Of a DNA stretch of 35,597 nucleotides, positions 1 to 32,776 are shown in pieces. The translations under genes and the position numbers were made by a program. Numbering within the stretch: position 1 is the stretch's first letter; every line of letters starts with the position of its first letter. The stretch spans positions 1 to 35,597 of the forward strand of contig JAGPDF010000047.1 of NCBI GenBank assembly GCA_018057705.1, given 5' to 3'. The stretch comes from Thermoanaerobaculia bacterium (GTDB lineage Bacteria; Acidobacteriota; Thermoanaerobaculia; Multivoradales; JAGPDF01). The notes under the pieces are model-generated. The model saw only the letters and a program-made list of their open reading frames with translations, was not told the origin of the DNA and did not search any database.

Positions 1-130
1 GCTACTCTCGGTCCGTTTTGGATCCACGCGAAGCTCTCGCGTCGCGCCCCGTGATGGCCCACCGGCCGTCGAAGCCGGCGTCGCCAAAGCCCAGCGGGGT
101 CGGCACGGACGGCGCAGACGGCAGAGGTCG
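1..130. other. non-coding left edge
   Basis: No convincing coding sequence is seen between the window edge and the kinase start at 131. The stretch ends in a weak Shine-Dalgarno-like AGAGG just before the kinase ATG. The promoter of the kinase operon may lie here or to the left of the window; I see no clear -10/-35 pair. Confidence 0.5.
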
Positions 131-3732: not shown

Positions 3733-3757
3733 GCCGGCAGCGCGCCGCGCCCACCGA

Positions 3758-3763
3758 TAGACT
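3758..3763 (+). promoter_or_regulatory. candidate -10 box (TAGACT) of a leaderless transcript
   Basis: TAGACT lies exactly 6 nt before the ATG of the prenyltransferase, and no Shine-Dalgarno sequence is present. With normal -10 to start-site spacing, transcription would begin at the A of the ATG. There is no clear -35. The same arrangement occurs at 25857 and 28098. Confidence 0.4.
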
Positions 3764-3769
3764 TCACGA

Positions 3770-4645
3770 ATGACCGTGAGGAGCGTCACCCACCGGCTTG
3801 GCATCGTCCTCGAGATGATCAAGTTCGAGCACACGCTGTTCGCGCTGCCGTTTGCGTTGATGGGGATGCTGCTCGCCGCGCAGGGGGTGCCGGAAGGACG
3901 GATCGTGCTCTGGATCGTGGTCGCGATGGTCGGGGCGCGGTCGGCGGCGATGGGGTGGAACCGCCTGGTGGACCGCGAGATCGACGCCGCCAATCCGCGC
4001 ACGGCGATGCGGGCTCTGCCCGCAGGTCTGGTGACCCCGGGCTTCGTCGCCCTCTTCGTGGTCGCGAGCCTGGCGCTGCTGGTCTTCGCCGCCTGGCGGT
4101 TGAATCCACTCTGTCTCGCGCTCTCGCCGGTCGCCATCGTGATCCTGCTCGGCTACAGCTATACCAAGCGCTTCACCTGGGCGGCACACCTCGCGCTCGG
4201 GCTCGCCCTTGCCGGGGCGCCGCTCGGCGCCTGGATCGCGGTCACCGGGGGCTTCGCGCCGACCCCGTTCGTGCTCGCCGGCATCGTCGTCACCTGGGTC
4301 GCCGGCTTCGACATCCTCTACGCGTTGCAGGACGAGGCCTTCGATCGCGCGCGCGGGCTGGCTTCGATCCCGGCGCGTTTCGGGGCGGTGAGAGCCCTCG
4401 CCCTTTCGGCCGGACTGCACGTCGCGACCCTGGGGTTCCTCGCCGCTCTGCCGTTCGTCTACCCTCCCGGCCTCGGCTGGATCTACTGGACGGGCGTCGC
4501 CGGCTGCGTCCTCCTCCTCGCCTACCAGCACGCGATCGTGCGGCCGGGCGACCTCTCCCGCCTGAATGCCGCCTTCTTCACCGCCAACGGGGTGCTCGCG
4601 CTCTGGCTCCTCGCGACCACGGCCACCGACGTCTTTCTTCGATAA
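3770..4645 (+). CDS. mqnP: UbiA-family prenyltransferase, MqnP-like
   Basis: A 291-residue polytopic membrane protein with about eight hydrophobic helices. It carries the UbiA-superfamily metal/diphosphate motifs: NRLVDREID (first NxxxDxxxD motif, about residues 64-72) and DILYALQDEAFD (second motif, about 184-195). The flanking pattern GARSAAMGWNRLVDREIDAANPRT is typical of the subgroup long annotated as 'putative 4-hydroxybenzoate polyprenyltransferase', which includes MqnP of the futalosine menaquinone route. That subgroup adds a polyprenyl tail to an aromatic acid in the membrane. The exact substrate is inferred, not shown: no other mqn or ubi gene is in the window. It starts 37 bp after the GGDEF-EAL stop and ends 23 bp before the next start. 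The start ATG lacks an SD and follows a -10-like TAGACT, suggesting a leaderless mRNA. Confidence 0.85.
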   Translation: MTVRSVTHRLGIVLEMIKFEHTLFALPFALMGMLLAAQGVPEGRIVLWIVVAMVGARSAAMGWNRLVDREIDAANPRTAMRALPAGLVTPGFVALFVVASLALLVFAAWRLNPLCLALSPVAIVILLGYSYTKRFTWAAHLALGLALAGAPLGAWIAVTGGFAPTPFVLAGIVVTWVAGFDILYALQDEAFDRARGLASIPARFGAVRALALSAGLHVATLGFLAALPFVYPPGLGWIYWTGVAGCVLLLAYQHAIVRPGDLSRLNAAFFTANGVLALWLLATTATDVFLR

Positions 4646-4668
4646 AGTAGAAGGCGGGCGAACCCTCG

Positions 4669-6084
4669 ATGAGCGAAGACCTGCACCTGCTCGGACGCCT
4701 GGCCGTCCACTACAAGCTGCTCACCGCCGAGCAGCTCGCCGAAACGACTCGCGCCCAGGCAAGGAGCACCGAGCCCCGCCCGTTGGGCGAGCTCTGGATC
4801 GACGCCGGATGGATGAGCCGGGCACAGCTCGACAAGCTCCTGGTGGTGCAGCGTGAAGTGCTCGCCAAGCAGCTCGGCCAGGTCGCAGGCCCACTCATCC
4901 CTCCGCGGCCTGCGGGCTCGACCGTCGACCTCGAGCAGACGGCCAGCGGGGAGACTTCCACCCGCGCCGGAAAGCGCATCGATCGCATCCTCGAGTACGC
5001 CGTCTCGCAGGGCGCGAGCGACGTCCACATCATGACCGGCGAGCGCGTCCTGCTGCGTCGTGACGGACGGTTGGCCTACGCCGGCGACGCCCCGCTCGAA
5101 CACGGTCAGATCGAACGCCTCGTCGCCGAAGTTCTCGATTCGCGTCTGCGCGAGGCGCTCGATCGCGACGGACAGACCGATTTCTCCTGGTCGATCGCCG
5201 GGCGGGCGCGATTCCGCGGCAACGCCTATCGCCATCAGCACGGCTATGGCCTGGTGCTGCGCGCCATACCGCTCGAGATCCCCACTCTCGCGAGCCTCGG
5301 TCTGCCGAATACTCTCGCCAAGCTCACCAACCATCATCAGGGGCTAGTCCTGCTCACCGGCCCGGCCGGGTGCGGGAAGTCCTCGACGCTCGCCGCTCTC
5401 GTGCGGCTGATCAACGAGGAGCGCCAGGACCACATCGTCACCGTCGAGGATCCGATCGAGTACCTCCATACACCGCTGCGCTGCGTCGTCAACCAGCGCC
5501 AGGTCGGCCGCGACACCCAGAGCTTCGCGCGCGCGCTGAAGGCGGCCCTGCGAGAGGATCCGGACGTGATCGCGATCGGCGAGCTGCGCGACCTCGAGAC
5601 GATCTCGCTGGCGCTCACCGCCGCCGAGACCGGCCACCTGGTGCTCGCGACGCTCCACACCGGCAGCGCCATCCGCACGGTCGACCGGATCGTGGGCTCC
5701 TACCCCTCGAACCAGCAGGCGCAGATCCGCACGATGCTCTCGGAGTCGCTGCGCGCCGTCGTCTCGCAGCGCCTCGTTCGTCGCGCCGACGGAAAGGGGC
5801 GGGTTCCGGCGCTCGAGATTCTCCTGGGAACCCGGCCGGTGGCAAACCTGATCCGCGAGTCGAAGACCTTCCAGTTGCGCTCGGTACTGCAGACCGGCAT
5901 CTCACAGGGCATGTGCCTGCTCGACACCTCGCTCGCGCATCTCATCCGGGAGGGCGTGGTGACACGCGACGAGGCGCTGCTCCATGCCGAGGACGTGAAG
6001 CTCTTGCCGCCGGCCGCCGGCGCGGGCGCAGGCGGAAGTTTTGCGCCCTCGGCGTCCGCGGCATCCGGCGCACAGGGAGCTTGA
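4669..6084 (+). CDS. PilT-type ATPase with MshEN-like N-terminal domain
   Basis: 471 residues, about 100 longer than a normal PilT. The N-terminal 70 residues contain two 24-residue repeats of the form xLGxL..........QL.......Q (about residues 8-31 and 39-62), resembling the paired motif of MshEN c-di-GMP-binding domains, though with some positions lost. From about residue 100 onward it is a PilT/PilU-type hexameric ATPase: Walker A GPAGCGKSS (about 230-238), Asp box with VTVEDPIEY, Walker B with DVIAIGELRD, His box ATLHTG, and a NLIRESK segment matching the PilT AIRNLIRE region. Such ATPases power type IV pilus retraction. A Pro/Ala/Gly-rich tail of about 25 residues follows. It lies directly upstream of a canonical PilT, so this may be a PilU-like accessory ATPase. 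Start chosen at the ATG just before the first repeat. Confidence 0.88.
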   Translation: MSEDLHLLGRLAVHYKLLTAEQLAETTRAQARSTEPRPLGELWIDAGWMSRAQLDKLLVVQREVLAKQLGQVAGPLIPPRPAGSTVDLEQTASGETSTRAGKRIDRILEYAVSQGASDVHIMTGERVLLRRDGRLAYAGDAPLEHGQIERLVAEVLDSRLREALDRDGQTDFSWSIAGRARFRGNAYRHQHGYGLVLRAIPLEIPTLASLGLPNTLAKLTNHHQGLVLLTGPAGCGKSSTLAALVRLINEERQDHIVTVEDPIEYLHTPLRCVVNQRQVGRDTQSFARALKAALREDPDVIAIGELRDLETISLALTAAETGHLVLATLHTGSAIRTVDRIVGSYPSNQQAQIRTMLSESLRAVVSQRLVRRADGKGRVPALEILLGTRPVANLIRESKTFQLRSVLQTGISQGMCLLDTSLAHLIREGVVTRDEALLHAEDVKLLPPAAGAGAGGSFAPSASAASGAQGA

Positions 6085-6095
6085 GCGGAGCACGC

Positions 6096-7160
6096 ATGGG
6101 ACGACTTCAGGATCTGCTGCGCGCGACCCGGGAAAGTGGGAGCTCGGACCTTCACCTCGCCTCGGGGTTCGCACCCCGCGTCCGGCTGCACGGCTCGCTA
6201 GTGCCGCTCGCGGGCGCAAGCGAGCTCGGGCCGGAGGCGCTCTCGACACTCCTTGCCGAGGGGGTGAGCGCCGGGCAGTGGAAGGAGTTCCTCGCCTCGG
6301 GCGATCTGGACTTCGCCTGTGCCGTCGCCGGCGTGGCGCGCTTCCGCGGCAACTACCTGCGCCAGGAGCGCGGCCCCTCGGCCGTATTTCGCACCATTCC
6401 GGAGGAGATCGCCTCGATCGAGGAGCTGGGTCTGCCGCCGGTGCTCGGCCGCCTGGCGGAGCTCCACAGCGGTCTCGTGCTGGTCACAGGGCCGACCGGC
6501 TCGGGCAAGTCGACGACCTTGGCCGCGATCGTCGACCGCATCAACCGGAACTTCGCGCGCCACATCGTGACCATCGAGGAGCCGGTCGAATTCGTCCACC
6601 GCAACCGGCTCTCGGTCTTCTCGCAACGGGAGGTCGGCAACGACACGGTGAGCTTCGCGGCGGCATTGCGCTCGGCCATTCGGCAGGACGCCGATGTCGT
6701 TCTGGTCGGCGAGATGCGCGACCTCGAGACGATCGCGCTGGCACTCAAGGCGGCCGAGATGGGCATGCTGGTCTTCGGTACGCTGCACACCAACAGCGCC
6801 GCCAAGACGATCGATCGCCTGATCGACGTCTTTCCCGCCGACGAGCAGCCCCAGGCGCGCCTGTCGCTCGCCGACTCGCTGGCGGCGATCGTCGCCCAGC
6901 TCCTCTTGCCCAGGGCCGGCGGGGCCGGCCGCGTCGCCGTGCACGAGATCCTGCTCAAGACCCCGGCGCTGCCCAACCTCATTCGCGAAAGCAGCATCTC
7001 GATGCTGACGAACCTCATGCAGGCGGGACGCAACGAAGGCATGCAGCTGCTCGACGATGCGCTCCTCGACCTCGTCACCCGCAAGGTCGTGACCCCGCGC
7101 GACGCCTACATGAAGGCATCGGACAAGGGCCGCTTCGAGCCGCTGCTCGAGCGCGAGTAG
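6096..7160 (+). CDS. pilT: type IV pilus retraction ATPase PilT
   Basis: 354 residues, the usual PilT length. The ATG at 6096 is 11 bp after the preceding stop with a GGAG before it. Motifs in order: SSDLHLASG near the N-terminus, Walker A GPTGSGKST (about 132-140), VTIEEPVEF Asp box, Walker B with DVVLVGEMRD, His box FGTLHTNSA, and NLIRESS near the C-terminus (the AIRNLIRE element needed for retraction in PilT). It hydrolyses ATP at the inner-membrane base of the pilus to depolymerise pilin. The pair with the preceding PilT-like ATPase resembles pilT-pilU organisation. No pilin or pilB/pilC is in the window. Confidence 0.93.
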   Translation: MGRLQDLLRATRESGSSDLHLASGFAPRVRLHGSLVPLAGASELGPEALSTLLAEGVSAGQWKEFLASGDLDFACAVAGVARFRGNYLRQERGPSAVFRTIPEEIASIEELGLPPVLGRLAELHSGLVLVTGPTGSGKSTTLAAIVDRINRNFARHIVTIEEPVEFVHRNRLSVFSQREVGNDTVSFAAALRSAIRQDADVVLVGEMRDLETIALALKAAEMGMLVFGTLHTNSAAKTIDRLIDVFPADEQPQARLSLADSLAAIVAQLLLPRAGGAGRVAVHEILLKTPALPNLIRESSISMLTNLMQAGRNEGMQLLDDALLDLVTRKVVTPRDAYMKASDKGRFEPLLERE

Positions 7161-9110: not shown

Positions 9111-10856
9111 TCACTTCTTTTCGGGAATCTCGGTCTCCTCGAAGACGGTGGACTGCAGACCGGAAACCTGGTCGACGACCGCCACGGCGACGCGTTGCCG
9201 GCCCGGCGAGAGGCGCACTTCGGCACGGTGGTACCAGGTTGCGGCGAGCGCCTGCTCGAGATCGCCTTCGGGAATGACGATCGGAACGATCGTGACGCCA
9301 CTCTCCTGCAGCCGGCCGCGCGCGTCCTCTATCGAGACGCGGACCTCTACCGAGCCGCGGCGCTCGCTGCCCTGCGGGACGAGCGCGATCAGGCGAAGCG
9401 GAATGCCGACGGCGATCGGGACGATCTCGCCCGACTTCTTCTGATCGTCGGGCCTCCCGGCACCCAGACTCAGGCTGATCTCCAGAGGATTCTCGGTCTG
9501 GCCGAGAGTCGCCGCGGCGGTGAGCGCGGTCGTCACTCGATCGCTCGCACCGCGACGGCGGAAGCTCTCGCGGTGGCGCACGGTGAGGTCGGCCCGGCGG
9601 GTCCGCACCTCGATCCGATGATCGTTCTCTCCCGCTTCGAGGCCGGTCGAGAAGCCGAGCGAGTAGGCGGCGTCGATGTCCGCCGTCACGCCTTCCAGGC
9701 GACGGTCGAGATCGCCCCAGATCGTGTAGGAGGCGCCCCCGGTGGCGCCGGTCAGCCGGGCGATGCTCGCGGCGGCTTCGGCGGCCCCGAAATCGTGCGG
9801 CAGGGGGCGAGCGGAGCTCGACCCGGCACCCCAGACGTCGGCTCCCCCCTCCGCGGGGGGTCGAACCACCGGCGAGAGGCTGTAGACGGTCACGCGGGCG
9901 TTCTGCGCGCCCTGGATCATCTCCTCGAACTCCATGAGCAGGGTCTGGCCCGCGAGCTCGAGCGCAGGTCCCCGGTTGGTGTCGGAGGAGACGAGGGCGC
10001 CGCGCTTCTGGTCGAGCGCGTCGAGCAGGAACTGCGCCGGGTTGGCCTCGATACCTGCCGTCGCGAGGACGACCACCTTGCGGCCTTCGAGCGCCGCCAA
10101 GGAATCGACCAGCTGACCCAGCGCCGCGATCGACCGCCGTTCGCGATCGATCTGCTGCTCCCCCCAGGAGACGATTGCCTGCTCGATCGTCCGCGCATCG
10201 CCGCCGTAGGTTCCGAGGTCGCGGATCTCGCGCTGCAGCTGCCTCTCCTCTCCGAGGCCGAGCGCCGCGAAGGACGGCCGGCGCTCGATCTGGTCGAACG
10301 CGGCCGCGATGGCGGCCGGGTCCGTCGTCGCCGGCGCGACAATCTGCAGCCGCTGATCGAACGCCGCCACCGTCACCCGGTCGGCGCCCGCCGGCCGCGC
10401 GCGCAGGTACTCCCGCAGCTCCTGGATCGCAGTCTTCCTGTCCTGACTCTCGAGCGCGGTCTGATCGATGTAGAGAATGAGATTCGTCGGAGCGACCCCC
10501 TGGACAGGAGTCCCCGGGACCGTCGCGATGCCGCCGGTCGGCGGCAAAGCTGGAGCGGCCGCCGCGGTCGCCCCCGCGAGGCGCGGGCCGGCGAAGTACT
10601 CGATCGCCACCGGGCGGCCGTCCACGAGGAGCTCGAAATCGTCCCTGCCGAGGTCCAGAATTCGTTGCTTCGCCTTATCGGTCACCACGACGTCGACGTT
10701 CACGACCTCGACGTCAACGCGCTCGGCGAAATCTTCCGCGGCGGCGGTCGCCGGCGGCGACTCCTGAGCGAGCGCGCTCGCTCCGTTCGATCCGCCGGCC
10801 AGCACGAACAGGAGCAGCGTTGCGTGTCGAAGGACTCGATCCTGCGGTGAATGCAT
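9111..10856 (-). CDS. VWFA-related secreted protein, paralogue 1
   Basis: 581 residues with a signal peptide (hydrophobic 12-30, cleavage near ALAQ). A VVNVDVVVTD segment (about 51-60) and DDFELLVDG (72-80) mark the N-terminal domain typical of acidobacterial VWFA-related proteins. A VWA-like domain follows (about 124-340), then a linker with AASIARLTGATGG, and a C-terminal beta-rich domain ending in WYHRAEVRL and VSGLQST. The VWA metal site is degenerate: DQTAL (131-135) where DxSxS is expected, and LATAG where LxDG is usual. GGAGG lies 6 nt before the ATG. It is last of four tandem paralogues, 69 bp after paralogue 2, with no promoter of its own that I can see. Its N-terminal domain is closest to paralogue 2. 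Function unknown; a periplasmic or surface protein-binding role is inferred. Confidence 0.85.
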   Translation of the reverse strand: MHSPQDRVLRHATLLLFVLAGGSNGASALAQESPPATAAAEDFAERVDVEVVNVDVVVTDKAKQRILDLGRDDFELLVDGRPVAIEYFAGPRLAGATAAAAPALPPTGGIATVPGTPVQGVAPTNLILYIDQTALESQDRKTAIQELREYLRARPAGADRVTVAAFDQRLQIVAPATTDPAAIAAAFDQIERRPSFAALGLGEERQLQREIRDLGTYGGDARTIEQAIVSWGEQQIDRERRSIAALGQLVDSLAALEGRKVVVLATAGIEANPAQFLLDALDQKRGALVSSDTNRGPALELAGQTLLMEFEEMIQGAQNARVTVYSLSPVVRPPAEGGADVWGAGSSSARPLPHDFGAAEAAASIARLTGATGGASYTIWGDLDRRLEGVTADIDAAYSLGFSTGLEAGENDHRIEVRTRRADLTVRHRESFRRRGASDRVTTALTAAATLGQTENPLEISLSLGAGRPDDQKKSGEIVPIAVGIPLRLIALVPQGSERRGSVEVRVSIEDARGRLQESGVTIVPIVIPEGDLEQALAATWYHRAEVRLSPGRQRVAVAVVDQVSGLQSTVFEETEIPEKK

Positions 10857-10925: not shown

Positions 10926-12752
10926 TCATTTCTTCCCGGGAATCTCGATCTCCGCGAAGGTGGTGGACTGCAGTCCCGAAACCTCGTCGAGCACGGCGAC
11001 CGCGACTCGCTGGCGCCCCGGCGCGAGACGCATCTCGGCGCGGTGGTACCAGGAGCTCTCCATCGCTCTCGCCATCTGACTCTCGGGCACATCGATCGGC
11101 ACGATCGCGGCGGAGCTCTCGAGCATGCGGCCGCGGGCGTCCTGGATCGCCACCCGCACCGACACGCGCCCGCGACGCAGCTCGCCCTCCGGAACGAGGG
11201 TCACGAAGCGCAGCGGAATGCCGACCGTGAGTGGCACGGACTGGCCCGACCGCTTCTTGCCCTCGCCCTTGCCGGCGCCGAGCTGCAAGGTGATTTCGAG
11301 CGGATTCTCGGCCTGGCCGAAGGTGACCGCGGCGGCGAGCGACGCTTCGGCCCGCTGCGGGGCGGAGCGGCGCCTAAAGCTCTCGCGATGGCGCACCTCG
11401 AGCCCCGCCCGCAGCGCGCGCACTTCGATCTTGTGGTCCTTCTCGCCGGCCGCGGCGCTGGTCGAGAAGCCGAGCGAGTAGGCGGCGTCGCCGTCCGCCG
11501 TGACCGCCGCGAGGCGAAGGTCGAGATCGGTGCCGACGGTGAACGAGGCTCCCCCGGTCGCCCCCGCGAGCCGCGCGACGCTCGATGCGGCTTCGACGAC
11601 CCCTGTGTCGCGCGGCAGCATCCGCGCGGAGGTGGCCCCGGTGCCCGCGAACTCCGCATTGTTGTCGGGTGGCGGCGGGGTACCGGGCGACACGGTGTAA
11701 AAGGCCACCCGGGCGTTCTGCGCGGCCTGAACCATCTGCTCGAAGGCAAGCAGCAGCTCCTGGCCCCGCACTTCGAGAGTCGGGGCGCGATTGGTGTCGG
11801 AGGAGGTCAGCTTCACCGGACCCTGGCGCTGCTGGTCGAGGGCGGCGAAGAGTCCCCGCGCCGGAAAGCCCTGGATCCCGGCGGTCGCGAGCACCACCGC
11901 CTTGCGCCCTTCGACCGCCGCCAGGGCGCCCACCAGACGCTCCAGGGCGACGATCGAGCGCCGCTCCCTCTCGAGCTCCTGCTCGGCCCAAACGGTGATC
12001 TCGTGCTCGAGGCGCAGCGCCTCGGCCCGCCGGGTCGTCACGACACGCTCGAAGCCTTCTTGGCTCGGCCTGCGCCCCAGGGAGGCCTCGACCCGCAGGG
12101 CGTTCTTGCCGTAGGCCCGCACGTCCTGCTCGAGCCGGTTCTTCTCGCTCAACCCGAGCAGCGCCCGCACGGGGACCTTCTCGAGCTCGTCGAGCGCCGC
12201 GACGATGCTCGCGCGATCGGTGGTCGGCAGGAGCAGCACGCGCAGGTTCTGCTCGAAGGCCGCGACCATCACGCGATCGTCGCCGACCGGCCGCGCCGCG
12301 AGAAACTCGCGCAGCTCCTCGACGGTCTGCTGGCGCACGCGGTTCTCGAGCGCGGTCTGGTCGATGTAGAAGATCAGGTGGGTCGGCGGGGTCAGCGGCG
12401 CAGCGGTCGCCGGGAGGGGCGCGATCGCGAGCTCGGGGATTCTCTCCGGAGAGAGCGCCTGGGGCGCCGCAGGCGCCCCCGCGAGCCGCGGCGCCGCGAA
12501 GTACTCGATCGCCACAGGGCGGCCGTCGACGAGAATCTCGAACTCGTTCCGTCCCAGGTCCAGGATCCGCTTCTCGTTGCGGTCGGTCACGATGACGTCG
12601 ACATTCACGACCTCGACTTCGACGCGCTCGGCGAAGCTCTCGGCGGGGGTTTGAGCGGCAGGAGGCGGAGCCTGGGCGAGAACTGCCCAGGAGTCCAGCC
12701 CGATTCCGAGGCCGAGCGCCGCGAGAAGAGTTTGCATCTGCCTTGGCTTCAT
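10926..12752 (-). CDS. VWFA-related secreted protein, paralogue 2
   Basis: 608 residues. The start is set at the ATG at 12752 because GGAGG sits 6 nt before it and the signal peptide then begins at once (LLAALGLGIGLDS... cleavage near VLAQ); a longer version would overlap paralogue 3. Same layout as the others: N-terminal VVNVDVIVTD domain with FEILVDG, VWA-like domain with DQTALE at the metal site, a long charged helical stretch (ERRSIVALERLVGALAAVEG), SSVARLAGATGG, and a C-terminal WYHRAEMRLAPG domain. It is the longest copy, with an insertion of about 20 residues before the charged helix. It starts 35 bp after paralogue 3, so it is probably co-transcribed from the sigma-54 promoter at 14625-14640. 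Confidence 0.85.
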   Translation of the reverse strand: MKPRQMQTLLAALGLGIGLDSWAVLAQAPPPAAQTPAESFAERVEVEVVNVDVIVTDRNEKRILDLGRNEFEILVDGRPVAIEYFAAPRLAGAPAAPQALSPERIPELAIAPLPATAAPLTPPTHLIFYIDQTALENRVRQQTVEELREFLAARPVGDDRVMVAAFEQNLRVLLLPTTDRASIVAALDELEKVPVRALLGLSEKNRLEQDVRAYGKNALRVEASLGRRPSQEGFERVVTTRRAEALRLEHEITVWAEQELERERRSIVALERLVGALAAVEGRKAVVLATAGIQGFPARGLFAALDQQRQGPVKLTSSDTNRAPTLEVRGQELLLAFEQMVQAAQNARVAFYTVSPGTPPPPDNNAEFAGTGATSARMLPRDTGVVEAASSVARLAGATGGASFTVGTDLDLRLAAVTADGDAAYSLGFSTSAAAGEKDHKIEVRALRAGLEVRHRESFRRRSAPQRAEASLAAAVTFGQAENPLEITLQLGAGKGEGKKRSGQSVPLTVGIPLRFVTLVPEGELRRGRVSVRVAIQDARGRMLESSAAIVPIDVPESQMARAMESSWYHRAEMRLAPGRQRVAVAVLDEVSGLQSTTFAEIEIPGKK

Positions 12753-12787: not shown

Positions 12788-14572
12788 TCAATTCGCTTCC
12801 GGGATCTCGAGCTCCACAAAAGTCGTCGATTGCAGCCCCGACACCTCGTCGAGGACCACGACCGCGACCCGCTGCGGACCCGGTGCCAGGCGCATCTCGG
12901 CGCGGTGGTACCAGGACGAGGCCATCGCCTTCGCCATCTGCGCCTCGGGGACGACGATGGGAACGATCGCGGCGGTGCTCTCGAGCATTCGTCCCTGGGG
13001 ATCCTGAATCGCCATCCGAACCGAGACCCTACCGTTGCGCACCTCGCCTTCGGGGACGAGGGTCACGAAGCGCAGCGGAATGCCGACCGCGAGCGGTACG
13101 ACCTGACCGGAATTCTTCTTGCCTTCGCTCTTGCCGACACCGACCTTCAGGGTGATCTCCAGCGGATTCTCTGCCTGCCCGAAGGTCACTGCAGCGGCGA
13201 GCGCCGACTCCGCGCGCTCGGGCGCCTCTCGCCGCTTGAAGCTCTCGCGGTGGCGCACTTCGAGGTCGGCCCGGCGGGTACGCACTTCGATCTTGTGGTC
13301 CTTGTCGCCGGCCGCGGCACCGGTCGAGAAGCCGAGCGAATAGGCGGCGTCGATGTCGGCGGTGACGGCCTCGAGGCGGCGGTCGAGATCGTCCCCGATG
13401 TTGTAGGAGGCGCCGCCCGTCGCCCCGGCCATGCGCGCGATGCTGGATGCGGCCTCGACCGTCGCCATGTCGCGCGGCAGCGGCTTCGCGGCGGCCTCCC
13501 CCGGCCCGGCACTGCCGAATTCGGCGCTGTTTTCGGCGGGAGGCTGGACCACGGGCGAGACCGTGTAGAAAGCCACCCTTGCGTTCTGGGCGGCGCGAAC
13601 CATCTGCTCGAATTCGCGCAGCACCTCTATCCCGCGCAGCTCGAGTGTGGGTGCGCGGTCCGCCTCGGTGGAGATCACCAGTTGGCGCTGTTGGTCGAGG
13701 GCGGCGAAGAGGCCGCGGGCGGGAAAGGCCTGGATCCCCGCCGTCGCGAGGACGACGGCCTTGCGACCCTCGGCTGCACCCAGAGCCCCGACCAGTCGCT
13801 CGAGGGCGACGATCGAGCGCCGCTCGCGATCGATCTGCTGCTCCGCCCAGTTGGTGATCTCGTTTTCGAGCCTGAAGATCTCGCTCTGCTGCATTCGGGC
13901 CCCGCGCAACTCCGCCGACGCGCCGCTCAGGCGCATGCGGTTGCGGCCGTAGGCACGAATGTCCTGTTCCAACTGCCGCTTCTCGCCGCTGCCGAGCCGG
14001 GCGAGCGACGGCCGGTTCTCGAGCTCGTCGAGCGCCTGGGCGATCGCCGCCGGGTCGGAGGTCGGCAAGAGGAGGACGCGCAGGTCCTGTTCGAACGCCG
14101 CCACCATCACGCGGTCGCCGCTGGCGGATCGGGCGCGCAGGAACTCGCGCAACTCCCGGACGGTCTCGAAGCGGGCACGATTCTCGAGTGCGGTCTGGTC
14201 GACGTAGAGAATCAGGTTCGCCGGCGGGATCGGCTCCGGAAGCGGCGACGGGGCGACCGGAAGCAGAGCGAGACTCTCCGCCGCAATCGCCGGCGCAGCA
14301 GGGAGGCGCGGCGCCGCGAAGTACTCGATCGGCACCGGACGGCCGTCCACGAGGAGCTCGAAATCGTCCTCATTCAGATCCAGCACCCGTCTCTTCTCGC
14401 GGTCGGTCACGATGACGTCGACATTCACGACCTCGACCTCGACGCGCTCGGCGAAGGGCTCCGGCTGGGCTTCCGGCTCCTGGCCCAAGGCGGGCAGCAA
14501 GGTCCCGGCGGCGAGGAGGACCGCGATCGCGAGCAGCCTGCGCGCGGACACCGGATTCGCAGCGGATCGCAT
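12788..14572 (-). CDS. VWFA-related secreted protein, paralogue 3
   Basis: 594 residues from the ATG at 14572, which has GGGAG 8 nt upstream; the frame is open further upstream but that part runs through the promoter. Signal peptide: LLAIAVLLAAGTLLPALG. The N-terminal half (DREKRRVLDLNEDDFELLVDG, then IEYFAAPR and DQTALENRAR) nearly matches paralogue 4, while the last 80 residues (WYHRAEMRLAPG, LDEVSGLQSTTF) are closer to paralogue 2, suggesting recombination between copies. The VWA metal site is again DQTAL, and LATAG replaces LxDG. It has its own sigma-54-type promoter 54 nt upstream and an 18-bp inverted repeat behind that. Function unknown. Confidence 0.85.
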   Translation of the reverse strand: MRSAANPVSARRLLAIAVLLAAGTLLPALGQEPEAQPEPFAERVEVEVVNVDVIVTDREKRRVLDLNEDDFELLVDGRPVPIEYFAAPRLPAAPAIAAESLALLPVAPSPLPEPIPPANLILYVDQTALENRARFETVRELREFLRARSASGDRVMVAAFEQDLRVLLLPTSDPAAIAQALDELENRPSLARLGSGEKRQLEQDIRAYGRNRMRLSGASAELRGARMQQSEIFRLENEITNWAEQQIDRERRSIVALERLVGALGAAEGRKAVVLATAGIQAFPARGLFAALDQQRQLVISTEADRAPTLELRGIEVLREFEQMVRAAQNARVAFYTVSPVVQPPAENSAEFGSAGPGEAAAKPLPRDMATVEAASSIARMAGATGGASYNIGDDLDRRLEAVTADIDAAYSLGFSTGAAAGDKDHKIEVRTRRADLEVRHRESFKRREAPERAESALAAAVTFGQAENPLEITLKVGVGKSEGKKNSGQVVPLAVGIPLRFVTLVPEGEVRNGRVSVRMAIQDPQGRMLESTAAIVPIVVPEAQMAKAMASSWYHRAEMRLAPGPQRVAVVVLDEVSGLQSTTFVELEIPEAN

Positions 14573-14624
14573 GGATGGATCTCCCGACGGTTCGAGGCGA
14601 GACTTCGGACTCGCTGATCCACAA

Positions 14625-14640
14625 AGCAAGAGCTGTGCCG
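14625..14640 (-). promoter_or_regulatory. sigma-54 (-24/-12) promoter for VWFA paralogue 3
   Basis: Read on the minus strand: CGGCACAGCTCTTGCT. It has GG-N10-GC spacing, a full GGCAC -24 element and TTGCT -12 element. The -12 GC lies 54 nt before the ATG at 14572. The consensus is TGGCACG-N4-TTGCW. Confidence 0.7.
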
Positions 14641-14662
14641 CCGTTGGTCGCGGGCTCCGGCA

Positions 14663-14719
14663 CTCGGGATCCAAAGCGGGCTCCTATCTGAGGCGTGGTC
14701 GCCCACTTTGGATCCCGAG
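14663..14719. repeat. 18-bp inverted repeat with 21-nt loop
   Basis: Arms 14663-14680 and 14702-14719 are reverse complements at 17 of 18 positions, with a GGATCC core in each arm. It lies between VWFA paralogues 3 and 4, 23 bp upstream of the sigma-54 promoter. It could be an activator (bEBP) binding site, or a hairpin ending the paralogue 4 transcript; there is no T-run for an intrinsic terminator. Confidence 0.75.
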
Positions 14720-14778
14720 CGCCCTCGCCTCGCGGTGAGACGAGGTTGGTGAGACGCGCGCCTGCGGCCGCCCGGCAA

Positions 14779-16527
14779 TCAGTCCGCTGCGAGAACCTCG
14801 ATCTCCACGAACGCCGTCGATTGCACGCCCGAGAGCTCGTCGACGACGACGACCGCGACACGCTGGGGCCCTGGCGCGAGGCGCATCTCGGCGCGGTGGT
14901 ACCAGGAGCTCGCGAGGGCGAGCTGCATCTGGTCTTCGGGAACGACGATCGGCACGAGCGCCGCCGGGCTCTCGAGCAACCGGCCACGGGCATCCTGAAT
15001 CGCCACCCGCACGGAGACCTTGCCGCGACGTACGTCTGCTTCGGGAACGAGAGTCAGGAGGCGGAGCGGCATGCCGACGGCGAGCGGCACGATCTCTCCC
15101 GTCTTCTTCTTGCCGTCCGGCTTGCCGGCGCCCAGCTGCAGCGTGATCTCGAGCGGATTCTCGGCCTGCCCGAAGGTCACGGCGGCGGCGAGAGAGGCGG
15201 CCGCCCGGTCGGGGGCCGAGCGCCGCCGGAAGCTCTCCCGGTGCCGGACTTCGAAGCCGGCCCGGCGCGTCCGCACCTCGATGCGGTGGTCCTTGTCGCC
15301 CTCCTCGGCCCCGGTCGTGAATCCCAGGGAGTAGCTGGCATCGACGTCCGCCGCCACCCCTGTGAGCCGGCGGTCGAGGTCGCTCCCGATCGTGAAGGAC
15401 GCTCCGCCCGTGGCCCCAGCCATACGGGCGATGCTCGACGAGGCCTCGACCGCTCCGAAGTCTCGCGGCAGCGGGCGGTCGGCGTTCGGTCCGGCGCTGC
15501 CGAACTCCGCACTGTTCTCGACCGGCGCCTCGGTGCCCGGCGCCACGGTGTAGAAGGCGATGCGCGCGTTCTGCGCGGCCTGAATCATGCGCTCGAAGTC
15601 GGCGAGGAGCGCCAACCCCCGACCCTCGAGGGTCGGCGCCCGATTGGTGTCGGTCGTGGTCGCGACGCCGCGCTGCTGATCGAGGGCGGCGAGCAGCGGA
15701 ACCGCTGGATTGGCCTGGATTCCCGCGGTGGCGAGCACCACGACCTTCCGGCCCTCGGCCGCGGCGAGCGCGTCGACCATCTGTGCGAGCGCAGCGATCG
15801 ATCGCTGCTGGCGATCGAGCTGTTGCTCGGCCCAGGCGACGATCTCGTGCTCGATGCGCTGCGCCTCGGCGAGCCGGAACCGCGGCGGGAAGCGCGCCGC
15901 GTCGCGGCCGTAATTTCGGATGTCGTGCTGGAGCTGCATGCGCTCGCCGTTGCCGAGCCGCGCAAGGGAGGGGCGATTCTCGAGCTCCTCGAGCGCCTGG
16001 TGGATGCGGGCCCGGTCGGAGGACGGGAGCAGGAGGACGCGGAGGTTCTGCTCGAACACCGCCACCGTCACGCTGTCTCCCCCTTCGGCGCGCGTCGCGA
16101 AGAACTCACGCAGCTCCCGGAGGGTCTCGTGGCGGGCGCGATTCTCGAGCGCGGTCTGATCGACGTAGAGGATGAGATTCGTCGGCGGGATCGGTTCCGG
16201 CGGCGGGGTCGCAGCCACCGGGAGCGTGGCGAGGTTCTCCGGCGCGAGTGCGGGTGCGGCAGGGGCGCGCGGCGCCGCGAAGTACTCGATCGGCACCGGG
16301 CGGCCGTCCACCAGAAGCTCGAAATCGTCCTCATTCAGGTCCAGGACCCGTCGCTTCTCGCGGTCGGTCACGATGACATCGACGTTCACGACCTCGACCT
16401 CGACGCGCTCCGCAAAGGGCTCTTCGGAGGCTTCCGGCGCCTGTGCCAAGCCAGGAGCTCCTGCAATTGCAAGCGCGAGGCCGGCGAACAGGCAGAGAAC
16501 TTGCGACCAGCGAAGGCAGACGGACAA
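14779..16527 (-). CDS. VWFA-related secreted protein, paralogue 4
   Basis: 582 residues from a TTG at 16527, preceded by GAGG at 7 nt; no ATG or GTG is available before the signal peptide (VLCLFAGLALAIAGAPGLAQ). Same architecture as its three downstream paralogues: VVNVDVIVTD, DDFELLVDG, VWA-like domain with DQTALENRAR, charged helix, SSIARMAGATGG, and C-terminal WYHRAEMRLAPG domain. The metal-site residues are degenerate as in the other copies. First gene of the array, with a sigma-54-type promoter 49 nt upstream; 206 bp separate its stop from paralogue 3. Likely periplasmic or surface-exposed; function unknown. Confidence 0.85.
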   Translation of the reverse strand: MSVCLRWSQVLCLFAGLALAIAGAPGLAQAPEASEEPFAERVEVEVVNVDVIVTDREKRRVLDLNEDDFELLVDGRPVPIEYFAAPRAPAAPALAPENLATLPVAATPPPEPIPPTNLILYVDQTALENRARHETLRELREFFATRAEGGDSVTVAVFEQNLRVLLLPSSDRARIHQALEELENRPSLARLGNGERMQLQHDIRNYGRDAARFPPRFRLAEAQRIEHEIVAWAEQQLDRQQRSIAALAQMVDALAAAEGRKVVVLATAGIQANPAVPLLAALDQQRGVATTTDTNRAPTLEGRGLALLADFERMIQAAQNARIAFYTVAPGTEAPVENSAEFGSAGPNADRPLPRDFGAVEASSSIARMAGATGGASFTIGSDLDRRLTGVAADVDASYSLGFTTGAEEGDKDHRIEVRTRRAGFEVRHRESFRRRSAPDRAAASLAAAVTFGQAENPLEITLQLGAGKPDGKKKTGEIVPLAVGMPLRLLTLVPEADVRRGKVSVRVAIQDARGRLLESPAALVPIVVPEDQMQLALASSWYHRAEMRLAPGPQRVAVVVVDELSGVQSTAFVEIEVLAAD

Positions 16528-16574
16528 GTAGGAACCTCGACTTCCTTGGCTTCTTCGGACTCTACTGTCGGGAG

Positions 16575-16590
16575 AGCAAGGCCTGTGCCG
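16575..16590 (-). promoter_or_regulatory. sigma-54 (-24/-12) promoter for VWFA paralogue 4
   Basis: Read on the minus strand: CGGCACAGGCCTTGCT, with GG-N10-GC spacing. It matches the promoter of paralogue 3 at nearly every position outside the spacer. It lies in the 72-bp gap between the aldo/keto reductase stop and the paralogue 4 start, 49 nt before the TTG. Confidence 0.7.
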
Positions 16591-16599
16591 GAAACCGGC

Positions 16600-17931
16600 T
16601 CAGGCCTGGGTGCCGCCGCGCAGAGAGAGCGCGGCGTCGGCGCGGATGAGGAGCGATTTGACCGGCAGGTCGTAGTCGCAGGCGGCCTCGCAGAAGCCGG
16701 CGCAGTGGGTGCAGTGGGCGGCGCGTTCGGCGGCGACGAGCCTGGCGTAGGACTCGACGGCGCGGCCCTCCTGGCCGTAGTCGTGGAAATACATCGAGAA
16801 GCGCAGGATGTCGGCGATCCGCACGTCGTCCGGGCAGGCCGGCTCGCAGGCGTTGCAGAAGCGGCAGACCTCGGTCGAGAAGCGCGCCTGGTACTCGTCG
16901 AGGAGCGCGAGATCGGCCGCGGCCAGGGGCGCTCCGGAGGCCGCCACGTACTCATCGACCTGCTTGCGGCTCGAGATCGAGATGATCAGGTTCGAGAGGC
17001 TGGGATTCGACAGCACCCATTTGAGCGCCGCCTGCTTGAAGCTCGTCTGGCGGTCGCGGAAGCGGTCGAGGTCGGCGCCCTTCGCTCCGGCGAGCGTCTT
17101 CATGGCGATGAAGCCGACGCCGGCGGCCGCCGCGCGGTCGATCAGCTGCTGCTGCTCGGGATAGTCGAGAAAGCTGTAGCGGCAGAGGAGGACGTCGAAC
17201 TGCCCCGAGTCGATGGCGTAGCCCATCACCTGCGGCAGATCGCCGTCGTGCCCGGAGGCGCCGAGGAAACGGGCCTTCCCGGCCTGCTTCGCGACCGCGA
17301 ACGCCTCGAGCATCTCCGGATCCTTCAGGCGGTCGATCCCCTGGTCGTCCGAGTGCCGGCCGACCTCGTGGTTGAGCACGATGTCGACGTAGTCCGTGCC
17401 GAGCCGCCGGAGACTCTCGTCGAGCATGTCGAGGAAGACCTGCTTCTTCGCTGGCTTGCCGATGTGATGCGGACACCACTTCGTCGTCAGGACGAACTTG
17501 TCGCGGCGGCCTTCGAGCGCCGCCGCGATCGCGCGCTCGGAAGCTCCGCCGCGGTAGCAGTGCGAAGTGTCGACGTAGTTGATGCCGCGCTCGAGCGCGT
17601 AGACGAGGACCTCCGGATCGTCGATGGGAAAGCCGCCGAAGCCGATCTCGGAAACCTGGAGGCCGGTGCGGCCGAGGGTGCGATAGCGCATGGACCCCGG
17701 CGCTGTCGGCGGTGTCGGCGAAGCGGGCAATGCCGGCGACGGCGGCGAGGATGCGGGAACGGGGGCCGCCTCCGGCGAGGCCGGTGCCGCCGCCTTCCCC
17801 TCCGGGCTACAGGCGATGCCCCCGACCATGCCGGCGCCCCCGGCGACTGCCGCGGCGGCGAGCCACTCCCGGCGCGACAGGCGGCGCGCCGGCGGGACTG
17901 GCGGGACCGGTGGCTTGCCCTCCTCGCTCAT
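16600..17931 (-). CDS. Tat-exported aldo/keto reductase with C-terminal Fe-S domain
   Basis: 443 residues from the ATG at 17931 (GGAGGG 6 nt upstream; its ATGA overlaps the preceding stop). The N-terminus has a twin-arginine signal SRREWL, a hydrophobic stretch, and a lipobox-like GGIAC, so the protein is probably folded with its cofactor and exported, perhaps lipid-anchored. An Ala/Pro linker follows. The aldo/keto reductase barrel (about 75-330) shows DTSHCY, TTKWCPHH and LNHEV, matching the Asp-Tyr-Lys-His catalytic tetrad positions. The C-terminus holds two cysteine clusters, CRFCNACEPAC (about 354-364) and CTHCAGFCEAAC (about 404-415), for ferredoxin-like [4Fe-4S] clusters; the second has an unusual Cx2Cx3Cx3C spacing. 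Substrate unknown. Last gene of a three-gene coupled operon. Confidence 0.88.
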   Translation of the reverse strand: MSEEGKPPVPPVPPARRLSRREWLAAAAVAGGAGMVGGIACSPEGKAAAPASPEAAPVPASSPPSPALPASPTPPTAPGSMRYRTLGRTGLQVSEIGFGGFPIDDPEVLVYALERGINYVDTSHCYRGGASERAIAAALEGRRDKFVLTTKWCPHHIGKPAKKQVFLDMLDESLRRLGTDYVDIVLNHEVGRHSDDQGIDRLKDPEMLEAFAVAKQAGKARFLGASGHDGDLPQVMGYAIDSGQFDVLLCRYSFLDYPEQQQLIDRAAAAGVGFIAMKTLAGAKGADLDRFRDRQTSFKQAALKWVLSNPSLSNLIISISSRKQVDEYVAASGAPLAAADLALLDEYQARFSTEVCRFCNACEPACPDDVRIADILRFSMYFHDYGQEGRAVESYARLVAAERAAHCTHCAGFCEAACDYDLPVKSLLIRADAALSLRGGTQA

Positions 17932-18386
17932 GCGTTTCCCTCCGCCGGGAGGTCGCGCCTGCCGGGCCCGAGGAGAACATAGAGCAGACAGAGGAAGAAG
18001 AGAAGCACGTAGACCTTGTTCGTGAACCAGAGGAGCTTCCAGAACGTCCACTCCGGGGCCCGCAGGTAGAAGAAGAACTTCGTCAGCACGACCGCCGATT
18101 CAGCGAGCGAAAGGGTCACGCCGTAAATCCAGGCGAAGTGCTGCCGCTGCCAGAGGAGGAGGGCCAACACCACGTGCGTGAGCGGCCAGAGATCCCACAT
18201 CACCCCCGCTCCGGCGAGCGCCGCCGAGCCGACGCCGCCGGGGCCTCCCGGGGTTTCACCGGCGAGCGCGAGGGAGAGGCCGAAAAGGAGCGGCACGAGG
18301 TACTTCACGACCAGCGTCCAGCTGATCATCACCACCAGCGCGAAGACGGTGGCGACGATCCAGCGCGGCCGCGGCCCGGGGTTCAT
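17928..18386 (-). CDS. small polytopic membrane protein
   Basis: 152 residues with four predicted membrane helices (about 10-38, 62-82, 86-105 and 122-142) and an Arg-rich C-terminus. I recognise no family. The start ATG at 18386 overlaps the stop of the upstream gene as ATGA, and its own stop overlaps the aldo/keto reductase start the same way, so the three products are translated together. It may anchor or pass electrons to the exported reductase, but no haem or quinone motif is visible (few His; no paired-His helix). Confidence 0.7.
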   Translation of the reverse strand: MNPGPRPRWIVATVFALVVMISWTLVVKYLVPLLFGLSLALAGETPGGPGGVGSAALAGAGVMWDLWPLTHVVLALLLWQRQHFAWIYGVTLSLAESAVVLTKFFFYLRAPEWTFWKLLWFTNKVYVLLFFLCLLYVLLGPGRRDLPAEGNA

Positions 18387-19357
18387 GCGGCTGGGACGGC
18401 CGTTGGAAGTCCGGGCGCCTGCGCTGCGCGCGCCGGGAGGAAGCGGACCAGCAGCAGCGCCGCGACCAGCGGCGAGGCGGCCCGCAGCAGGTAGAAGGCG
18501 TCGCCGCTGGTGACGTAGTTGGCGCTCGGGAAGACCGGCGCCAGCCAGTCGGCGATCAGATAGAAGTCGACGAAGAGGAGCGTGCCGCGAAAGATCCCGG
18601 CGGCGACGAGACCCGAGGCGCGGTAGAGCACCGTGCTGCCGACCTCGCGCGCCAGCGCGGTGACCAGGGCCGCGGCGACGAAGGCGGGCTCGCTGATCGA
18701 AAGACCGGGAGCGATCGCCGGCAGGGCGAGCGCCGTTCCGCACAGCAGCGAGAGCGTCCAGGCGGCGGGAGCGCCCCAACCCGCGAGAGCCTCCTCGAAG
18801 AGCCGCCCGCGGAGTGTCCGTTCGTAGAAGCGCACCGCCAGCAGGACGAGGAGCGGCAGCGCCCAGAGAGCCGTCGCCGCGCGGGTGGCGGCGAGCTGCT
18901 GATCGCCGTAGGTGAGGGTCAGCCAGCCGAGCTGGTAGGCGATGCCGATCGGCGCGAGATCGACGGCGATCGCCACGCCGATCCAGAGCAGGAGCTTCGT
19001 CCAGCGCAGGCCGGGTGCCGGAGGCGCAGCCCCGCCGGCTGGGGCAGGTGTCCCGCCGGAGGTCAGGGAGGGCGAGGGCAACGCCGACGGAATCGGCAGG
19101 CTGGGCTTCGGCGGCGGCAGGGCGGGCAGCGGAATGCCCGGCAGCCGCAGGCGCTGCGGCAGCGCCCCCGCGGCCGCTCGGCGCGCCTTCCGCTCCCGCG
19201 TCAGCAGGCCGCAGAGGAAGACCAGGCCCGGCAGCGCCCAAACCAGAAAGAGCCGCAGCGCATCGGGCTGGCCGTCGCCATAGCGCCCGGCGAACCAGGT
19301 CGCGCCGGCCGCCAGATCCAGGAGAAGCATGGCGAGCAAAGCGGTGCGGACTCTCAA
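18383..19357 (-). CDS. polytopic membrane protein, possibly degenerate CPBP-like
   Basis: About 324 residues. Start taken at TTG 19357, which gives an N-terminal RVRTALLAMLLLDLAAG signal anchor; ATG 19330 is an equally possible start inside that helix. Two N-terminal helices, a Pro-rich cytoplasmic or periplasmic linker of about 60 residues (about 80-140), then about six helices. The segment ERTLRGRLFEEAL followed by a helix, and later VLYRASGLVAAGIFRGTL, is reminiscent of CPBP intramembrane proteases (EExxxR and a C-terminal His helix), but the Glu pair and the catalytic His appear to be lost. This assignment is weak. First gene of the coupled operon with the small membrane protein and the Fe-S aldo/keto reductase; divergent from the dienelactone hydrolase. 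Confidence 0.6.
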   Translation of the reverse strand: MRVRTALLAMLLLDLAAGATWFAGRYGDGQPDALRLFLVWALPGLVFLCGLLTRERKARRAAAGALPQRLRLPGIPLPALPPPKPSLPIPSALPSPSLTSGGTPAPAGGAAPPAPGLRWTKLLLWIGVAIAVDLAPIGIAYQLGWLTLTYGDQQLAATRAATALWALPLLVLLAVRFYERTLRGRLFEEALAGWGAPAAWTLSLLCGTALALPAIAPGLSISEPAFVAAALVTALAREVGSTVLYRASGLVAAGIFRGTLLFVDFYLIADWLAPVFPSANYVTSGDAFYLLRAASPLVAALLLVRFLPARAAQAPGLPTAVPAA

Positions 19358-19416
19358 GGTACGGGATTCTACGGCTTTCGATAGGCTCCAGCCTTCCCTT
19401 CGAGAGGAGAATTCCG

Positions 19417-20358
19417 ATGCGCCCGACCCCCCGACTCTCCACGACCCTGGCCGCCACCGTCCTGGCGCTTGCCGCTGCGCTCGCCAGCGCCCAGACCTCG
19501 CCCGCGCCGCAGGCCGCACCGGCTTCACCCTCTTCACCCCCTTCCGCTACTTCAGCAGCCGCCCAGAACGCCGCCCACGCCGCGAAAATGGCCAAGGAGC
19601 ACCAGCACGACACGGCGGCGGCCAGCCCGGCCACGGTGCCCCCGCCGGCACAGGCGGTCGCCGCCGAAGAGATCGCCTACGCGACCCTCGACGGCGTTAC
19701 CGTCAAGGGCTACTTCGTGCGGCCCTCGCAGGTCGCACCGGGAGGGAAAGCGCTGCCGGCGCTCATCGTCATCCAGGAGTGGTGGGGACTGAACGACAAC
19801 ATCCGCGCCATGGCCCGGCGCTTCGCCGGCGAGGGCTACGCCGTGCTCGCGGTCGACCTCTACGAGGGCAAGGTGGCGACCACCTCCGAGGCTGCGATGG
19901 CGACGATGCAGGGAGCCATGGAGAAGCCGGCGCGCCTGCTCGACAACCTCCGGCAGGCGCACACCTTCCTCGCGACCCAGGCGGGCGCCACCCGGATCGG
20001 CGTCGTCGGCTGGTGCTTCGGCGGCGGCTGGGCACTCGAGACCGCGCTCGCCATTCCGGACGGCATCGACGCCGCGGTCATGTACTACGGCCGCACCCAG
20101 AGCGATCCGAAGGCGCTTGCCCCGCTCCAAGCACCGCTCCTCGGTCTCTTCGGGGGCAAGGATGAGGGCATTCCGGTGGACGGAGTGCGCCAGATGGAGC
20201 ACGAGCTCGTGAAGCTCGGCAAGAACGCCACCATCGTCATCTACCCCGAAGCCGACCACGCCTTCGCCAATCCGACCGGCAACCGCTACCTCGCCGGGCC
20301 GGCGACCGACGCCTGGGAGAAGACGATGGCCTTCTTCGCCCAGCATCTCAAGAACTGA
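19417..20358 (+). CDS. exported dienelactone hydrolase family protein
   Basis: 313 residues; the ATG at 19417 has an AGGAGA 7 nt upstream. Signal peptide (LAATVLALAAALASAQ), then a low-complexity Ala/Pro/Ser linker with a His-containing stretch, then an alpha/beta-hydrolase domain from about residue 85. The dienelactone-hydrolase triad is visible: nucleophile Cys in GWCFGGG, Asp in GGKDEGIP, His in ADHAFAN. The family includes carboxymethylenebutenolidases, but exported members often act on other esters, so the substrate is open. Divergent from the membrane-protein operon and 26 bp upstream of the SUI1 gene. Confidence 0.87.
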   Translation: MRPTPRLSTTLAATVLALAAALASAQTSPAPQAAPASPSSPPSATSAAAQNAAHAAKMAKEHQHDTAAASPATVPPPAQAVAAEEIAYATLDGVTVKGYFVRPSQVAPGGKALPALIVIQEWWGLNDNIRAMARRFAGEGYAVLAVDLYEGKVATTSEAAMATMQGAMEKPARLLDNLRQAHTFLATQAGATRIGVVGWCFGGGWALETALAIPDGIDAAVMYYGRTQSDPKALAPLQAPLLGLFGGKDEGIPVDGVRQMEHELVKLGKNATIVIYPEADHAFANPTGNRYLAGPATDAWEKTMAFFAQHLKN

Positions 20359-30300: not shown

Positions 30301-30316
30301 TGGCACGACGAGTGCA
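30301..30316 (+). promoter_or_regulatory. sigma-54 (-24/-12) promoter for the 70-residue gene
   Basis: TGGCACGACGAGTGCA differs from TGGCACG-N4-TTGCA only by G for the first T of the -12 element. GG-N10-GC spacing is exact. It lies 62 nt before the ATG at 30377. Confidence 0.7.
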
Positions 30317-30376: not shown

Positions 30377-30589
30377 ATGTCCGCGCACCCGTTCGATTTC
30401 ATGCATCAGCCCCTCCCCTTGCGGCTTCGTCGCCTCCAGCAGTTCCGCACGGACAACTTCGCGCAGACGCTGGTCGAAGGTTTCGCGCTGCCCCTCGCCC
30501 ACCCGTCGCCCTCTGCGCGCGAGCGCAGCGACGCCACGGAGCGCCTCCTCCATGCGCGACGTCGCGATCTCGCCACGAAGCCCGTCTGA
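30377..30589 (+). CDS. 70-residue hypothetical protein
   Basis: A small gene with GGAGG 8 nt before its ATG and a sigma-54-type promoter 62 nt upstream, which together support that it is expressed. It has many Arg and His residues, no Cys and no membrane segment: MSAHPFDFMHQPLPLRLRRL at the start, then RTDNFAQTLVEGFALPL, which could form an amphipathic helix. I recognise no family. Convergent with the 85-residue membrane protein, 36 bp apart. Confidence 0.5.
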   Translation: MSAHPFDFMHQPLPLRLRRLQQFRTDNFAQTLVEGFALPLAHPSPSARERSDATERLLHARRRDLATKPV

Positions 30590-30625: not shown

Positions 30626-30883
30626 CTAGCTGCGCGGTCGGCGCAAGGCGAAGCGGGAGGGCCGCCGGCTGCGCGCCCGGTCGGTCGAGATCGACGGTTC
30701 GCGGCCCGCAGTCACGGCGCGCGCGCCTTTGTACATGAAGGCCGAGATCATGGCGGAGAAGAGGATGATCGCGACCTGCGTGAGCCGCATGTAGGTGGTG
30801 GGGATGTCCAACAGAAAATCGATGAGGATCCCGGCGATGAGCCCGGCCAGCGCTCCCATGAACAGGTAGGTCTTGACGCCCAT
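30626..30883 (-). CDS. small two-helix inner-membrane protein
   Basis: 85 residues from the ATG at 30883, with GGAGAG upstream. Two membrane helices (about 4-24 and 34-50) are separated by a short loop containing DIPTTYMRLTQ; a basic, Arg-rich cytoplasmic tail of about 30 residues follows. No family recognised. Its promoter region holds a near-perfect sigma-54 site 50 nt upstream, and it is divergent from the lipoprotein gene, which has its own sigma-54 site. Confidence 0.65.
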   Translation of the reverse strand: MGVKTYLFMGALAGLIAGILIDFLLDIPTTYMRLTQVAIILFSAMISAFMYKGARAVTAGREPSISTDRARSRRPSRFALRRPRS

Positions 30884-30931: not shown

Positions 30932-30947
30932 CGCAACCGGCATGCCA
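30932..30947 (-). promoter_or_regulatory. sigma-54 (-24/-12) promoter for the 85-residue membrane protein
   Basis: Minus strand: TGGCATGCCGGTTGCG. TGGCA and TTGC elements with exact GG-N10-GC spacing, 50 nt before the ATG at 30883. Confidence 0.7.
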
Positions 30948-31085: not shown

Positions 31086-31101
31086 TGGCATGCGCCGTGC
31101 T
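31086..31101 (+). promoter_or_regulatory. sigma-54 (-24/-12) promoter for the lipoprotein gene
   Basis: TGGCATGCGCCGTGCT. GG-N10-GC spacing is exact; the -12 element has GTGC in place of TTGC, as in the site at 30301. It lies 63 nt before the ATG at 31163. Confidence 0.6.
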
Positions 31102-32760: not shown

Positions 32761-32776
32761 GGCAAGAGGAGTGCCA
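32761..32776 (-). promoter_or_regulatory. sigma-54 (-24/-12) promoter for the outer-membrane barrel gene
   Basis: Minus strand: TGGCACTCCTCTTGCC. Full TGGCAC and TTGC elements, exact GG-N10-GC spacing, 64 nt before the ATG at 32698. A 14-bp GC palindrome at 32859-32872, about 85 bp further upstream, could be an activator site. Confidence 0.72.

Follow-up and report, generated by a model that had tools for sequence, protein, structure and literature searches.

The VWFA array and its upstream sites

The window, by which we mean the whole 35,597-nucleotide stretch that was analysed (JAGPDF010000047.1, positions 1-35,597, from assembly GCA_018057705.1 of a Thermoanaerobaculia bacterium), carries four VWFA paralogues on the minus strand, each of which exceeds, at 145-155 bits, the curated TIGR03436 (acidobact_VWFA) threshold of 81.25 bits. 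Gene starts were taken from a simple home-made GC-frame caller, which misplaced that of paralogue 4. The features of the array are listed here, with the sites upstream of paralogues 3 and 4 denoted p3 and p4.

9111..10856, minus strand: VWFA paralogue 1 (gene calls; TIGR03436, 153 bits)
10926..12752, minus strand: VWFA paralogue 2 (gene calls, start at 12752 or 12791; TIGR03436, 145 bits)
12788..14572, minus strand: VWFA paralogue 3, 594 aa (TIGR03436, 152 bits)
14603..14612, minus strand: block GAGTCCGAAG, p3 copy (alignment of both upstream regions)
14625..14640, minus strand: candidate sigma-54 -24/-12 site of paralogue 3 (p3), CGGCACAGCTCTTGCT, exact match, 15.8 bits
14655..14730, no strand assigned: interspersed palindromic repeat between paralogue 4 and p3 (RNA fold z-score -8)
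14779..16527, minus strand: VWFA paralogue 4, 582 aa (TIGR03436, 155 bits; AlphaFold2 model with a VWA fold)
16553..16562, minus strand: block GAGTCCGAAG, p4 copy (alignment of both upstream regions)
16575..16590, minus strand: candidate sigma-54 -24/-12 site of paralogue 4 (p4), CGGCACAGGCCTTGCT, exact match, 15.8 bits

Paralogues 3, 2 and 1 are separated by gaps of 35-69 nt, paralogue 1 lying 69 nt past paralogue 2, and they look like one unit, with paralogue 4 forming a separate one. Paralogue 2, which sits after paralogue 3, has no sigma-54 site of its own; a candidate before it at 12873-12888 was taken as a chance match, being a 10.3-bit site inside paralogue 3 with no TTGC. On the opposite strand, the array is adjoined by a gene for a GGDEF-EAL response regulator (1639-3732) and by two genes for type II/IV secretion (PilB/PilT-like) ATPases (4669-6084 and 6096-7160).

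Paralogue 4, as modelled with AlphaFold2 (pLDDT 81.5), comprises a VWA domain followed by a beta-rich C-terminal part, and VWA domains account for most of the model's best matches in the PDB. A search of solved structures by sequence found no relative. The paralogues are like the TIGR03436 family in the scores of all four and in the VWA fold of the paralogue 4 model, but differ from it in the beta-rich C-terminal part and in the metal site. The canonical MIDAS motif DxSxS is absent after the first strand in paralogues 1-4, where VDQTALE is found instead; DxSxS does occur in several of the genome's other VWFA proteins, whereas these four have D-Q-T-A-L. TIGR03436 genes were present in each of 121 Thermoanaerobaculia genomes that were searched, often with more than 10 per genome.

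Both upstream sites read CGGCACA-N4-TTGCT in the coding orientation. Their -24 and -12 elements are identical and the four-base spacer differs; positions, strand and shared elements are exactly those that a sequence-only reading of this DNA had assigned to them. Counted from the -12 element, the start codon is 52 nt away for p3 (ATG at 14572) and 47 nt away for p4 (TTG at 16527). With 15.8 bits each, they are the top two sites of the window by a sigma-54 matrix with hand-set frequencies modelled on the published consensus, and only 0.15 sites of at least 15 bits are expected per dinucleotide shuffle of the window. Both have the GG-N10-GC spacing that sigma-54 requires, in a GGCAC/TTGC context, and both have the correct orientation and lie within about 200 nt of a start codon, as is expected of true sigma-54 sites (PMC3162934). 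No sigma-70-like site was found in the region searched. Judging from the -12 position, transcription would start near 16564 for p4 and near 14614 for p3, with GAGTCCGAAG just downstream, and p3 is probably the promoter of the whole 3-2-1 unit.

Alignment of the two upstream regions shows that they have diverged outside the motif and GAGTCCGAAG, which begins 12 nt past the motif in both. The pair appears to be partly a duplication relic with its core retained, because the upstream regions are poorly alike except for GAGTCCGAAG at equal distance. The inverted repeat before p3 was also considered as an enhancer site, and was ruled out because this element of about 70 nt (14655-14730) is one of about 32 copies in the genome, at 82-99% identity, which form a REP/MITE-like family.

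Position and number of sites in the window and genome

Six sites in the window reach at least 12 bits, compared with 0.95 expected in shuffles. Each is correctly oriented towards a plausible start, at a distance of 47-62 nt. In addition to p3 and p4, these are the following.

30301..30316, plus strand: sigma-54-type site TGGCACGACGAGTGCA, 14.7 bits, 60 nt before a 70-aa ORF (30377-30589)
30932..30947, minus strand: sigma-54-type site TGGCATGCCGGTTGCG, 13.7 bits, 48 nt before an 85-aa membrane-protein ORF (30626-30883)
31086..31101, plus strand: sigma-54-type site TGGCATGCGCCGTGCT, 12.8 bits, 61 nt before a lipoprotein-like gene (31163-31678)
32761..32776, minus strand: sigma-54-type site TGGCACTCCTCTTGCC, 12.4 bits, 62 nt before an outer membrane beta-barrel gene (32099-32698; Pfam OMP_b-brl match)

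The suggestion that the array is linked to the genes at 30-33 kb is borne out to the extent that four sigma-54-type sites lie 48-62 nt before starts there, but the further step to a single regulon is not, since no shared enhancer site was found.

Counting the motif across the genome is an uninformative test: the strict form YGGCACRN4TTGCW occurs five times in 5.08 Mb, as against six times for the reversed control, and one of the five, on contig C161, is the p4 promoter as it occurs in a second strain. What is non-random is the position of the motif and not its number, and the claim that the pair is unlike a chance match holds only in the former sense. The form GGYACRN4TTGCW has 12 sites genome-wide, six of which (one being a strain copy) lie before VWFA genes. 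Weighing against the sigma-54 reading, the top pair in an unbiased search of trinucleotide pairs was not a piece of the -24/-12 motif, although several such pieces ranked near the top.

Contig C161 (positions 1-3824, locus L213) is 93.9% identical to positions 16463-20331 of the window, and its copy of the p4 promoter, TGGCACAGGCCTTGCT, has one change toward the consensus. Together with contig C171 (positions 1-3134, locus L214; 90% identical), it is colinear with the two flanks of the array, and both contigs end where the VWFA array repeats begin. Most likely, the genome bin also contains a co-assembled second strain, and these contigs are its version of this locus; that they belong to another array of the same genome is less likely in view of the 94% and 90% identity and the colinearity with both flanks. 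In the one further genome available for the genus, the orthologous array is cut off before its promoters.

Enrichment upstream of VWFA genes in the organism's own family

Enrichment of the motif upstream of orthologues, the check that the sequence-only reading had proposed, is strong within the organism's own family. We compared 72 VWFA genes from eight Thermoanaerobaculia genomes with 264 neighbouring genes, the genomes used for comparison including many MAGs. Sites of at least 12 bits are present between -160 and -25 in 19 of the 72 VWFA genes and in 6 of the 264 neighbours (p 1.5e-9), and on the antisense strand of the same intervals in 0 of 72. Over the wider interval of -250 to +30, sites at this threshold precede 24 of the 72 genes, compared with 0.21 expected in dinucleotide shuffles. 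In a control that is independent of the matrix weights, the spacer of GGYNY-Nk-TTGCW was varied, giving 23 occurrences at the sigma-54 spacing versus 0-2 at each of ten other spacings, and none on the antisense strand at the sigma-54 spacing. Relatedness of the genes does not account for the enrichment: when proteins are clustered at 40% identity, sites of at least 10 bits are found for 10 of 17 VWFA clusters and for 7 of 162 control clusters (p 4e-8).

Within the genome itself, six of the nine VWFA units have a site (p4, the 3-2-1 unit led by p3, C14, the C63 pair, C24 and the C10 pair), and none was found in the other three (C6, C15 and C25). In the C63-type two-gene unit, all 8 orthologues of the first gene have a site upstream, compared with 1 of 7 for the second gene; in the first-gene sites the GG and GC core is invariant, with variation in the surrounding bases. 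The other member of the genus has the C14 site unchanged, within a conserved block. The C24 site, at a distance of 226 nt from its VWFA gene and behind a small divergent ORF, is probably real; a chance match was dropped as an explanation given that two orthologues have a site at a similar distance (-223 and -232), three others being without one.

Sites in the rest of the class and phylum

Outside the family the signal fades. Among other families of the class, sites of at least 12 bits precede 9 of 119 VWFA genes and 7 of 327 control genes (p 0.01), a small excess; single strong sites do occur, such as TGGCACGGGTCTTGCT before L128_1 and TGGCACAGGGCTTGCT before L123_0. An initial class-wide test of the highest-scoring VWFA genes gave three sites of at least 12 bits in 85 genes; in the organism's own family, the top-scoring VWFA subfamily occupies the second position of a VWFA pair, where sites are mostly missing. 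In the rest of the phylum, no clear excess was found among 68 VWFA genes outside the class, and phylum-wide conservation was rejected on this basis. The search across Acidobacteriota that had been suggested is therefore positive for the organism's own family, weak for the rest of the class and negative for the rest of the phylum. Given the weak excess in the class and none beyond it, sigma-54 control would be a trait of a lineage and not of the whole VWFA family.

Proposed mechanism and alternative explanations

In established sigma-54 biology, the holoenzyme waits at the -24/-12 elements until an activated AAA+ protein opens the complex. The genome encodes rpoN (C13:44169-44645, E 2.5e-66) and has 24 matches to the sigma-54 activator domain PF00158, about 20 of them strong. 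We consider it highly likely that p3 and p4 are real sigma-54 (RpoN) promoters and a local case of a wider family rule, and the comparative data make sigma-54 control of the own-family VWFA genes a well-supported prediction. RNA polymerase with sigma-54 would bind the -24 and -12 elements in a closed complex, which a signal-activated AAA+ enhancer-binding protein would then open, with one promoter switching on paralogue 4 and the other the 3-2-1 unit. Under the wider rule, many VWFA (TIGR03436) transcription units from several diverged subfamilies would each have their own sigma-54 promoter, and some envelope-type genes would carry such promoters alongside them.

A functionless duplication relic, in which a chance match before an ancestral paralogue was subsequently copied, would be consistent with the 70% identity of paralogues 3 and 4, with the second 10-nt block that p3 and p4 have in common after the motif, and with a genome-wide motif number no higher than that of the control. 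It is very unlikely, however, because the remaining upstream sequence has diverged, sites with other spacer bases occur at the corresponding position in distant VWFA subfamilies and in other genera, and duplication at a single locus cannot yield an enrichment seen only at the sigma-54 spacing. That the motif is instead the binding site of another factor, or reflects a coding or structural constraint resembling -24/-12 elements, strikes us as extremely improbable. Coding constraint could hold the sequence of those sites, such as C63, that fall within the end of an upstream gene, but the defining marks of sigma-54 promoters are all there, with an exact GG-N10-GC spacing in a TTGC context, the expected orientation and a start close by, and rpoN and many activators are present.

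If p3 and p4 are indeed sigma-54 promoters, the question becomes which activators serve the VWFA units. There is perhaps an even chance that each unit answers to a different activator, with no VWFA or envelope regulon beyond the common RpoN. The roughly 20 activators in the genome, the spread of VWFA units over many contigs and the lack of an activator gene beside the array point in this direction, as does the outcome of a search upstream of 12 own-genome promoters, in which no convincing shared enhancer motif or common dyad was found. Enhancer sites are short, however, and could be missed, and the fact that sigma-54 sites favour a single protein family across the eight genomes points to a shared theme. 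A more ambitious reading, which we regard as possible but somewhat doubtful, is that a single sigma-54 activator controls VWFA units from several subfamilies as well as the outer membrane barrel, the lipoprotein and a periplasmic protease, switching them on in response to an envelope or contact signal; the same tentative standing applies, as part of this reading, to the idea that the expanded VWFA proteins of this Thermoanaerobaculia family might be the core of a dedicated surface-protein regulon.

Relation to known sigma-54 systems

The reduced sigma-54 consensus was derived from 85 mapped promoters (PMC3162934). Sites p3 and p4 match known sigma-54 promoters in the GG-N10-GC core, the GGCAC/TTGC elements, orientation and distance to the start, as well as in the presence of rpoN and AAA+ activators in the genome. 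The sites here differ from those of PMC3162934 in that position -26 is often C and not T, and from known promoters in having TIGR03436 VWFA genes as targets. Comparative genomics has tied sigma-54 to the bacterial exterior, with exopolysaccharide, flagellar, lipid, LPS, lipoprotein and peptidoglycan genes among its targets (Francke et al. 2011, PMC3162934); the main text of that study names no Acidobacteria and no VWA proteins. Several targets here likewise look exported or envelope-bound, namely the VWFA proteins with signal-peptide-like N-termini, the beta-barrel, the product of the lipoprotein-like gene and a DegP-like protease. Our literature search, which covered few subscription journals, found neither a described function for TIGR03436 proteins nor a paper on sigma-54 control of the family, in agreement with the sequence-only reading, which had known of no such description.

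Sigma-54 control would place expression strictly off or on under a specific activator, and suggests that the VWFA proteins may be made only on demand. It would also offer a testable lead to VWFA function, through the activator and its signal, and would add a large new target family to the part that sigma-54 plays in controlling the cell surface.

Other sigma-54-type sites in the genome

In locus L303 (C21:15000-25000), at 3194-6251 on the plus strand, the DegP-like protease gene has a sigma-54 site, GGGCACGGCGATTGCT, at -68, and a gene for an NtrC-like sigma-54 activator lies 172 nt downstream of it. From their arrangement, the protease and its NtrC-like neighbour may be a lead toward an envelope-linked activator. 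A strong sigma-54 site, TGGCACGGGGCCTGCT, accompanies the gene of a 110-aa protein resembling a nitrile-hydratase-type leader peptide (locus L307, G000:C27:41553-41885, minus strand). In addition, at 3995-5690 on the plus strand of locus L295 (contig C55), a sigma-54-like site, CGGCACACCCATTGCA, lies about 256 nt before a gene outside TIGR03436 whose product has a VWA-like motif and is FHA-like in its C-terminal sequence.
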